A DNA stretch of 64,000 nt from an uncultured Holophagaceae bacterium (GTDB lineage: Bacteria > Acidobacteriota > Holophagae > Holophagales > Holophagaceae). Below, piece after piece: positions 29,823 through 32,496 of this stretch (the stretch's first letter is position 1; every line of letters begins with the position of its first letter). Location of the stretch: the NCBI GenBank assembly GCA_903913215.1, contig CAIWKE010000003.1, positions 310,001 through 374,000 on the forward strand. Direction: 5' to 3'. The notes below the pieces were generated by a model. That model saw only the letters and a program-made list of their open reading frames with translations, was not told where the DNA came from and made no database searches. The position numbers and the translations under genes were made by a program.

Positions 29823-30224
29823 CTAGCCTATCAGATCAGCTGAGCGAGCATTCCCGGGCCTTTCCGATAGAGTCCCGATGCGCTGAAGCAGAGAAAAGTT
29901 CCGCGGCGGCATAGGCAGGCACTTCATTTCCTCCAGATTGAACCAGCCCCATGCCAGCTCGGTGCGGGGCTCGCCCACAGCATCCACCAGGAAGGGATGC
30001 AGGCGCGGTTCACCCTCCAACGGGGCCCAGGCCTGAGCGCCGCTGACCCGCAGCCCCAGTTCCTCAAACACCTCCCGCTCCAGGGCCTGCCGGGGGGTTT
30101 CTCCGGCCTCCGCCTTGCCGCCAGGGAACTCCCAGAGGCCCGGCAGAAGGACATTCCGGGGATCCCGCCGTTGGAGGAACCAGCGCTCCCCGCGTCGCAG
30201 CAGGCCCAGGGCCACGTCGGTCAT
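29823..30224 (-). CDS. mutT: NUDIX hydrolase, 8-oxo-dGTP diphosphatase type
   Basis: 133 residues. Complete Nudix box in GGKAEAGETPRQALEREVFEELGL (Gly, Glu, REVFEE). GLLRRGERWFLQRRDP and LPGLWEFPGGK match MutT proteins. It probably sanitises oxidised nucleotides, in keeping with MutY elsewhere in the window. The ATG overlaps the rnhB stop (ATGA), so it is translated with rnhB. Confidence 0.85.
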   Translation of the reverse strand: MTDVALGLLRRGERWFLQRRDPRNVLLPGLWEFPGGKAEAGETPRQALEREVFEELGLRVSGAQAWAPLEGEPRLHPFLVDAVGEPRTELAWGWFNLEEMKCLPMPPRNFSLLQRIGTLSERPGNARSADLIG

Positions 30225-31039
30225 TCAGGCGCTTCCGACCCGGTGTCCGCCACCTGCACCAGGCGATCCGCGTAACGCCGCCGCAGGGTCTCCACCCAGA
30301 CCCGCTTGAGGCTCCCATAGGCGGGGCGCAGCTCCGTGGCCACCCAGGCGTGGAGTTCGGCCACTGTCGAGCAGCGTTCCAGGCTGTGCAGGAGGTTGTC
30401 GCGCAGCGCCTCATCCACCTGCTGCAGCGCCGCCACGGGGGCGTAGCTGATGCGATGTACGGGGCTCACGCCCAGGGCCTCTATCTGCGCCCGATGCAGG
30501 GGCGTACCGTAGCCCTTGTGCTGGCCGAACCCGTAACCGGGGTGCAGCTCCTCCAGGCCGATCATGAGGGCATCGCGATGGGCCTTCGCCAGGATGCTGG
30601 CAGCCCCGATGGCGCAGCTGAGGGCATCCCCGTCCACCACCAGGCGCTCAGGCAGGCCTGTGCGGGGCGCCCGGTTGCCGTCGATGAAGAGAATCCGGGG
30701 GCGCAAGGCCAGATCCGCCACGCACTGGCGCATGGCCATCATGGTGGCCTCAAGGATGTTTTCCCGGTCGATGGCCAAGGAGTCGATTTCGGCGATGCCG
30801 TAGGCGGGGAGAATGGCCTTCAGCTCCGCCGCCAGGGCCTCGCGGCGCTCGGGTTTCAGCTCCTTGCTGTCCCGCACGCCCCGGAGCACATGGCCCCACT
30901 TTTTCACGGTCTCCGGATCCAGCACCGCGCAGGCCGCCACCACGGGCCCCGCCCAGGCCCCCCGCCCCGCCTCGTCCACACCCCCCCACGCCACGCCCGG
31001 CGGCACATTTCCCAGGTCCCAGTCGAGGGGGTTCAGCAT
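30221..31039 (-). CDS. rnhB: Ribonuclease HII
   Basis: 272 residues. DEAGRGAWAGPVVAACAVL (catalytic Asp-Glu), DSKELKPERRE, ILFIDGNRAP (third acidic residue) and AASILAKAHRDALM are the family motifs. It removes RNA from RNA-DNA hybrids and single ribonucleotides. The C-terminal ~70 residues extend past the catalytic core. Coupled to the downstream Nudix gene. Confidence 0.94.
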   Translation of the reverse strand: MLNPLDWDLGNVPPGVAWGGVDEAGRGAWAGPVVAACAVLDPETVKKWGHVLRGVRDSKELKPERREALAAELKAILPAYGIAEIDSLAIDRENILEATMMAMRQCVADLALRPRILFIDGNRAPRTGLPERLVVDGDALSCAIGAASILAKAHRDALMIGLEELHPGYGFGQHKGYGTPLHRAQIEALGVSPVHRISYAPVAALQQVDEALRDNLLHSLERCSTVAELHAWVATELRPAYGSLKRVWVETLRRRYADRLVQVADTGSEAPE

Positions 31040-31161: not shown

Positions 31162-31713
31162 ATGAAATCGCTCCTGAACATGAAACCCACCCTCATGGAG
31201 TGGCGCCGGAGGGCTGGCCCCGGCTTGGCCTACGATCTCCACACCGCAGAGGGCATTGCCGCCAGCCTTGTGTTCCCGGATCGGGGCAGCACCCTGGCGC
31301 GGGTGGAGACTGCTGAGGGGGCCTGGACCATCATGCACCCGGACCTACTCAACCCGGTCACCACGGTGCGCGTGGCGGGTGCGACGGACAACCTGGCCCT
31401 GTTCTATCCCCATGCCTTGCGGCACGGCAGCTTGGAGTTCTCGGATGGCGTGGCCTATGACTGGGCTGCCCTCGATGGCACTCCCGCCGGTGGAGCCTTC
31501 CTGAGCCAGGCAGGCACCCCTCTGGTCCGCCTCCACCCCCGCCTGGGCCTGGACCCAATCCAGGATCTGGAATCAGGCATGGTGGAGTTGGGGCACCCCC
31601 CGCAACAGGCCTGGCGCCACGGCATCCTGGCCGCCTTGGGCTGGTATCTCCTGGTGCTCGACCACTTCAAGGAGAACCCGGAGCACGCCGCAGAATTCTC
31701 GCTGCGGCTCTAG
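31162..31713 (+). CDS. Hypothetical protein, beta-rich
   Basis: 183 residues, ATG preceded by AAAGGGGG. No signal peptide. The pattern of short strands (GLAYDLHTAEGIAASLVFPD, LARVETAEGAWTIMHPDLLN, VTTVRVAGATDNLALFYPHA) suggests an antiparallel beta structure, ending with a long helical segment (AWRHGILAALGWYLLVLDHF). Tubby/scramblase-like folds look similar, but I would not assign one. It is convergent with the glycosyltransferase; a structured repeat starts right at its stop codon. Confidence 0.65.
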   Translation: MKSLLNMKPTLMEWRRRAGPGLAYDLHTAEGIAASLVFPDRGSTLARVETAEGAWTIMHPDLLNPVTTVRVAGATDNLALFYPHALRHGSLEFSDGVAYDWAALDGTPAGGAFLSQAGTPLVRLHPRLGLDPIQDLESGMVELGHPPQQAWRHGILAALGWYLLVLDHFKENPEHAAEFSLRL

Positions 31714-31860
31714 CTCAACATTTCAGCGATTCCCAGGCGATCAGCTAGGTCAACCCGGATCTGGCCCAAGCTTGGCGCTGCGAGGCAGCGCAAAGTGACA
31801 AGGCCAGACCGGGTTGAAGCCAGTTCAACATTTCAGCGATTCCCAGGCGATCAGCCAGGT
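31712..31860. repeat. 39-bp direct repeat flanking a nested stem-loop
   Basis: Two 39-bp copies at 31712-31750 and 31822-31860 differ at two positions and lie exactly 110 bp apart. The right copy is the 3' end of the glycosyltransferase gene; the left is a stray duplicate. Between them, TCAACCCGGATCTGGCC (31750-31766) pairs with GGCCAGACCGGGTTGA (31802-31817) with one bulged base, enclosing a second perfect hairpin GCGCTGC-GAG-GCAGCGC (31775-31791). Confidence 0.85.
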
Positions 31861-32496
31861 ATCCATCACCCCTCTGAAATGACTCCGCGGCGGCCCCGGC
31901 AGATAGATGGCCTGGATGGGGATGTGGGCCCAGTGCAGCTTCCAATCGGCGGCCTTCATGGCCATTTCCATCTCGATGGCGAAGCCCTCGGAGCGCAGCT
32001 GTAGGCGGTTCACCACCGCGCGGCGGATGAGGCGGTAGCCGCTTTGGGTGTCCTCCCACTTGACCCCCGCGATGCGGCCCAGGGTCCAGCTGCCCAGGGC
32101 GTTGGTGCGCCAGCGCTTGGGCGGTATCTTGGCCCGATCCAGGAGGCGGGAGCCGATGAGGAAGTCCGCGTCCGGGTGCACCGCCAGGTAGTCCAGGAAG
32201 TGCTGCAGGTCACCCGGCGCATGTTGGCCGTCCGCATCCAGGAAGAGGTAGAAGTCGAAGTCGTCCTGGCGCAGGTGCGTGATGGCCGCCCGCAGGGCCT
32301 GCCCCTTGCCGCCGCCCAGGCCAGGTTCCAGGCGCAACACCTCAGCGCCGGCAGCCCGGGCCACGGCGCTGGTCGCGTCTGTGGAGCCGTCGTCCACCAC
32401 CAGCACTCGATAAAGGTTGAAGGGGTTCAGCCCCTCCAGCACCGCCCCAAGGTGATCAGCTTCATTGTGGGCGGCGAGGATCGCGACGATCTTCAT
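31825..32496 (-). CDS. Glycosyltransferase family 2 (dolichyl-phosphate-sugar-synthase-like)
   Basis: 223 residues: AILAAHNEADHLGAVLEGLN, VVDDGSTDATSAVARAAG and the DxD motif in FLDADGQHAPGDLQHFLDYL give the GT-A fold; SGYRLIRRAVV is the later family motif. It likely transfers a sugar to a polyprenyl phosphate or glycolipid. The ATG overlaps the upstream M61 peptidase stop (ATGA). Its last 12 codons are duplicated 110 bp away. Confidence 0.88.
   Translation of the reverse strand: MKIVAILAAHNEADHLGAVLEGLNPFNLYRVLVVDDGSTDATSAVARAAGAEVLRLEPGLGGGKGQALRAAITHLRQDDFDFYLFLDADGQHAPGDLQHFLDYLAVHPDADFLIGSRLLDRAKIPPKRWRTNALGSWTLGRIAGVKWEDTQSGYRLIRRAVVNRLQLRSEGFAIEMEMAMKAADWKLHWAHIPIQAIYLPGPPRSHFRGVMDTWLIAWESLKC

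Follow-up and report, generated by a model that had tools for sequence, protein, structure and literature searches.

The hairpin that follows a family 2 glycosyltransferase (GT) gene in the window (the whole 64,000-nt stretch of Geothrix-like Holophagaceae DNA analysed here) is probably part of a small mobile element that holds no gene, consists of a 75-nt nested hairpin and a substitute gene 3' end, and pushes the native end of its target gene downstream. We put the probability of this reading at about 0.6. The observations behind it are filled, empty and decayed sites, the same layout at several genes, and displaced ends of rimO that match relatives in two genomes (G005 and G015). No description of such an element was found in the open-licence literature.

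Hairpin and gene-end copies at the GT locus

An earlier note on this DNA, made from the sequence alone, had described two 39-nt repeats 110 nt apart around a nested hairpin and had assigned one of them to the GT 3' end. Both statements are confirmed. The direct repeats are identical at 37 of 39 positions with a spacing of 110 nt, and the right copy takes in the final codons of the GT ORF together with its stop (Table 1). The left copy lies between the GT gene and a convergent ORF that encodes 183 aa, the stop of which overlaps it by 2 nt; this ORF, which matches no Pfam or NCBIfam family at E 0.001, stands between rnhB and the element. In several hairpin-free relatives the rnhB start lies, as read by eye, closely 3' of the GT stop. 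One codon of the window's downstream GT-end copy has changed from Trp to stop.

Table 1. Features of the GT locus in window coordinates; positions of the outer stem and inner hairpin are alignment columns converted to window coordinates.
Feature	Position	Strand	Size	Basis
Ribonuclease HII gene (rnhB)	30221..31039	-		ORF and family models
Convergent ORF	31162..31713	+	183 aa	ORF list
Second GT 3'-end copy, downstream of core	31712..31750	-		repeat search
Hairpin core, CTGGCKTCAAC...GTTGA family	31749..31823	-	75 nt	folding, homology and alignment
Outer stem, bulged bases on 3' arm, enclosing inner hairpin 31771-31795	31750..31817	-	16 pairs	folding, alignment
Repeat copy, 3' end of GT gene now in use	31822..31860	-		repeat search, ORF list
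GT, family 2 glycosyltransferase, host gene	31825..32496	-		ORF and family models

When folded, the insert forms an outer stem of 16 bp, interrupted by a bulged base, around an inner hairpin (-49 kcal/mol, z -6.2), a stability reached by 0 of 200 shuffles, and the fold is strong on each of the two strands. The core of about 68 bp first proposed holds as a hairpin, and its extent by homology is 75 nt. The suggestion that it might be a terminator between convergent genes is not supported for the T-tailed type, though a terminator of another kind is conceivable: no T-tailed hairpin was found in 31500-32100 on either strand (within the loop and tail limits of the tool), no T run follows either hairpin arm as read from the window sequence, and the hairpin is scattered in its presence among relatives. 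A search of Rfam at E values up to 1 gave a sole match, far under the gathering score and outside the core. Within the window's own genome (G000, an assembly of 3.9 Mb) a search with the 191-nt region gives one match at E 0.001, and the core alone finds itself and short partial matches only, the best of 26 nt (E 0.01). The genome search for further cores proposed by the earlier note thus yields no second full copy in G000, and related copies are found in other genomes.

Presence and absence in the genus

The genus sample comprised 47 genomes, G000 included, and the GT 3' end could be placed in 45 of them (no match in G024, a weak match in G041). Nineteen of these 45 GT ends have the hairpin in the same place, five have it in decayed form (G002, G019, G038, G042 and G044) and 21 are without it; the states were scored by eye, those of G004 and G040 with the help of further results. 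All 19 carriers have the order gene end, hairpin, second gene end in the orientation of the gene, and in G004 a contig end breaks the arrangement inside the hairpin. Behind the second GT-end copy of G020 and G011 a partial second core is retained. The core covariance model finds one to three places per genome among the genus carriers listed, and the database records with the same element come from Geothrix and other Holophagaceae.

Hairpin presence was mapped on a tree of the GT gene body, trimmed of the last 60 nt, for 43 of the 45 genomes (all but G043 and G040). Presence takes 14 changes, compared with a mean of 14.6 for shuffled labels (230 of 500 shuffles were as low), on a tree that is weakly supported, with 7 of 40 inner branches starred and 20 open; the starred branches alone force at least 5 to 6 state changes. 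Presence at the GT locus is therefore scattered about as shuffled labels would be. The close trio G010, G001 and G046 provides the empty site with one repeat copy that the earlier note had proposed to look for in close strains: the first two genomes are filled, and G046 has an exact empty site in which the flank after the single gene end agrees with the sequence after the downstream copy at 55/60 positions in G010 and 53/60 in G001.

Conservation of the core and of the GT-end copies

Eighteen distinct cores aligned over 75 columns have a mean column identity of 93%; the GT gene bodies of 16 carriers are 6-26% different. Pairing in the stems is kept in 97.9% of 468 cells of the alignment, one stem pair is seen as UA, AU, CG and GC (all four Watson-Crick types), and between loci the stem sequence varies with pairing retained. 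Because the arrangement at the GT locus is conserved in the genus, a chance origin is excluded. On the gene strand there are 9 G-U wobble cells against 7 A-C mismatch cells, which is no clear excess, so that nothing favours gene-strand RNA over DNA. Core distance tracks GT-gene distance among the 16 carriers (Mantel r 0.64, 0 of 5,000 permutations as high; r 0.47, P 0.006 when G011 and G020 are removed), which suggests that part of the history at the GT locus was vertical or limited to close relatives.

When the two GT-end copies were compared with the nearest hairpin-free relative in 16 genomes, the downstream copy was closer in 3, the gene's own end in 6, and 7 were ties, which marks neither copy as the native one. 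The copies differ by 3.6 mismatches of 33 within genomes and by 5.5 between genomes (16 genomes, P 5e-5), and each half of the repeat tracks its own genome (G009, G011 and G020 left out). Since the two copies are alike within a genome, duplication or conversion within lineages also appears to act. Eleven of 18 genomes have no amino-acid difference between the pair over 28 codon differences (four of them stop-to-stop), the remaining seven have 11 synonymous and 20 nonsynonymous differences, and G040 has 4 synonymous and none nonsynonymous, counts whose overall synonymous ratio would be similar if the gene were under constraint and the copy next to it neutral.

Other loci with the hairpin

The layout with a hairpin between two copies of a gene end occurs at three genes unrelated to one another, which family models identify as GT2 glycosyltransferase, RimO and GlmS, with gene-end copies of about 36 nt at GT, 54 nt at glmS and about 100 nt at rimO. 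Several loci of G049, which belongs to another genus, are matched by the core covariance model. On one of its contigs glmS ends in a tandem hairpin array, and a second contig holds the array, a glmS-end copy and a tRNA-Val gene; the two contigs probably adjoin, and their glmS ends differ over 18 codons by 5 synonymous and 2 other changes. Contigs C14 and C7 of the same genome have cores without an evident gene-end copy. The core on C7 lies within a GC-rich tandem repeat array with an 87-bp period. A third genus (G103) has two cores 188 nt apart, with 24 nt of the spacer recurring behind the second, and a third core without such a long repeat.

A scan of genome_contigs with the exact hairpin pattern returned 38 stretches, of which folding and flanks mark 10 as real (Holophagaceae, Geothrix and the NC_groundwater_1575 assembly) and 28 as chance. 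Two matches of the same pattern in viral contigs lie in apparent coding sequence and were set aside by eye as chance, and among the plasmids and phages searched there was no core match at E 0.01. Seven genomes of the genus have at the end of a third gene a hairpin with the tip of the core and other arms, without the same gene-end copy; its outer stem takes in the region around a convergent gene's stop codon. The 22 matches in G115 were dropped as a different, MITE-like repeat after inspection by eye of 18 of them. That repeat (TATAGTGAAACAAC ... GGCTATA) is dispersed and has a hairpin tip resembling the core; the G115 assembly in which it was matched 22 times is 64% complete and may be contaminated.

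Probable exchange of gene ends at rimO

The core covariance model matches rimO in G005, G009, G015 and G042. The order there is the rimO stop, 11 nt, a core ending GTTGA (ATTGA in G042), and then a copy of the rimO 3' end of about 100 nt. The hairpin is absent at 27 of the 31 rimO ends read, and the four carriers amount to four changes on the GT-body tree. At this gene the two gene-end copies differ in their ends: rimO now ends FRNRQRS in G005, G009 and G015, and behind the G005 hairpin is an end reading FRSKRSAP, which is the rimO end of the hairpin-free G002.

Of the 27 hairpin-free genomes, 22 could be anchored, and both ends of each carrier were compared with these over equal lengths. The best match of the displaced copy exceeds that of the gene's own end in G005 (0.95, to G002, and 0.80), G009 (0.85, to G002, and 0.80) and G015 (0.88, to G019, and 0.83); in G042 the order is reversed (0.80 and 0.83). 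The next 100 nt behind the displaced copy are best matched by the same relatives in G005 (G002, 0.91) and G015 (G019, 0.88), and in G009 and G042 no relative exceeds 0.51. G005 agrees with G002 at 93/98 positions of the displaced copy and at 368/400 over the 400 nt from the displaced copy, and its own rimO end at 68/96. The rimO body of G003 is nearer to that of G005 than the body of G002 is, yet its end is unlike the displaced end of G005. The own end and core of G005 agree with those of G009 at 141/148 positions and the gene bodies at 690/750. As the other five rimO pairs have end and core less alike than the body, a recent transfer is suggested for G005 and G009 only.

By this comparison the native rimO end appears to have been displaced clearly in G005 and G015, partly in G009, and not in G042. 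The match of displaced end and flank to hairpin-free relatives in G005 and G015 makes the hairpin look like a mobile element that swaps gene ends. We prefer gains over losses here, since under repeated loss the displaced copies would have had to stay coding while unused, and most rimO ends are hairpin-free. The insertion with a long target duplication proposed in the earlier note is accordingly kept in its first half, on the strength of related copies at other places and of empty sites in which one repeat copy stands. A plain target duplication does not fit the differing rimO copies, nor the downstream copy and flank that in two of the four carriers clearly agree with a relative's native end.

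Alternative explanations

An ancestral functional 3' hairpin, either an mRNA stabiliser or a terminator free of T runs, could have been duplicated in tandem together with the gene end, after which the second hairpin would have decayed and gene conversion would have kept the ends alike. Core distance that follows gene distance, GT copies that track each other, the partial second cores of G020 and G011 and the conserved stem would all be expected of such a history. We nevertheless regard it as unlikely, because state changes at GT are about as numerous as with shuffled labels, the displaced rimO ends and flanks of G005 and G015 match hairpin-free relatives, the hairpin is without a T tail, and the wobble counts do not favour the gene strand.

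Integration of a larger element into a gene 3' end leaves attL and attR on its flanks, and the order attL, hairpin, attR could be the remnant of such an element whose integrase targeted these gene ends. The layout is the same as after integration of this kind. We consider this origin to have only a small chance, given that no farther gene-end copy was found in the sequence that follows 44 GT ends (a median of 1,500 nt searched, least 62; G040 and a duplicate G004 row left out) or 31 rimO ends (1,121-1,500 nt), and hence no larger version of the element is seen within about 1.5 kb; to judge from the conserved core and the tandem arrays, the unit is more likely the hairpin itself.

The hairpin might also be an attC-like site, folded and inserted at secondary sites by the integron integrase of Geothrix. 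At E 1e-40 this enzyme is present in 32 of the 47 genomes (29 above the cut-off), attC arrays adjoin it in several, and on our reading of the alignments attC and core have in common the short sequence TCCGRGTTGA and the arm on which bases are bulged. Sites of attC type have paired outer boxes RYYYAAC / GTTRRRY. The core ends TCAAC/GTTGA are without such paired boxes, and Geothrix attC have GCCTAAC/GTTAGGC. Searched against seven integron loci (121,667 bases), the core model gave one weak match (E 0.02), which lies in none of the listed attC. Genomes without the core at GT have the integrase as often (15/21) as those with it (14/19; 3/5 for decayed sites), and none was found at E 1e-40 in the window's genome. 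We therefore judge an attC origin very improbable. As read from the loci, several Geothrix chromosomal integrons have long attC arrays beside IntI, with sites of 108-126 nt; a literature search for Geothrix and integron found a single sewage survey. Retro-duplication, in which cDNA of an mRNA 3' end (a 5'-truncated gene end plus hairpin) recombines beside its gene, would suit the constant right boundary at the hairpin end and the copied gene-end length that varies between loci, but is hardly credible given that 15 of 47 genomes have a reverse transcriptase domain, with 7/19 core, 0/5 decayed and 8/21 hairpin-free GT states among them.

Two known classes of short repeats were also rejected. A MITE would have a short fixed target-site duplication in place of gene-end copies of three lengths with differing ends at rimO, and would be expected in many dispersed copies, not as the one full core of G000 and the one to three places per listed carrier. 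A REP system would have its Y1 transposase, which was found (PF01797) in 5 of 47 genomes and not in G000. The element contains no mobility gene, and none of the enzymes compared across the 47 genomes (Y1 transposase, integron integrase and reverse transcriptase, with genome lists per enzyme and hairpin state compiled by hand) is correlated with it. No homing endonuclease ORF is present, and the 75-nt core has no room for one.

Proposed mechanism

We propose that the fixed part of the mobile element is the 75-nt nested hairpin, which would travel with the 3' end of its host gene. On arrival, the target gene would take the element's last codons and stop, the hairpin would come next and the native end would lie just behind it, so that the gene would stay whole after insertion with its end replaced. 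For two or three of the four rimO carriers, comparison with relatives supports such a replacement, and GT and glmS may by analogy have undergone the same. If the two copies recombined, the hairpin would be removed precisely and the empty site would result, and the tandem structures of G034, G020, G103 and G049 may have arisen by expansion of units. Spread between species would be mostly by homologous recombination, for which the duplicated gene end would provide the homology arm. To enter a new gene for the first time, the element would presumably need a nuclease or recombinase supplied in trans, with the hairpin or the site as its substrate. One could tentatively go further and see here a minimal bacterial homing-like element without a protein gene, in which a folded hairpin with grafted last codons of the target spreads via host recombination and the conserved gene end serves as address label, an extension that we hold to be doubtful.

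If the main reading is right, the exchange of gene 3' ends by mobile elements, known from fungal mitochondria, also takes place on bacterial chromosomes, where the element measures <200 bp. Housekeeping proteins such as RimO would have their C-termini altered by it, and gene annotation would easily overlook it. Geothrix, with some cultured strains, offers natural filled, empty and decayed sites for seeking the responsible enzyme.

Comparison with known systems

Like integrative elements at gene 3' ends, the hairpin element would restore the target end and displace the old one; unlike them it is without integrase or cargo, and the insert is about 110-190 bp. The double-hairpin elements of Allomyces mitochondria resemble the core as GC-rich nested hairpins that are thought to be mobile, and, unlike what is proposed for the Holophagaceae hairpin, we know of no gene-end exchange by them. 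MITE, REP and RU sequences are described as short non-coding repeats that form hairpins and are mostly intergenic and scattered (PMC2229807, PMC2759123, PMC3733652). The hairpin element shares these properties and differs from repeats so described in its few copies per genome, its long gene-end copies and the Y1 transposase of so few genomes.

The closest analogue is the homing element of fungal mitochondria that carries a gene end. In the gene hybrids with mobile ORFs described in PMC3630166 (atp6, atp9, cox2 and nad3), a foreign C-terminal part that continues the gene is inserted together with an endonuclease ORF, and the native C-terminal part sits downstream and is closer to relatives than the inserted one. 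A foreign end with the native end downstream is likewise what we find at rimO in G005 and G015 and partly in G009, though not in G042. The fungal elements encode an endonuclease ORF of about 0.4-1 kb (PMC3630166), whereas the hairpin of the bacterial chromosome has 75 nt and no ORF.
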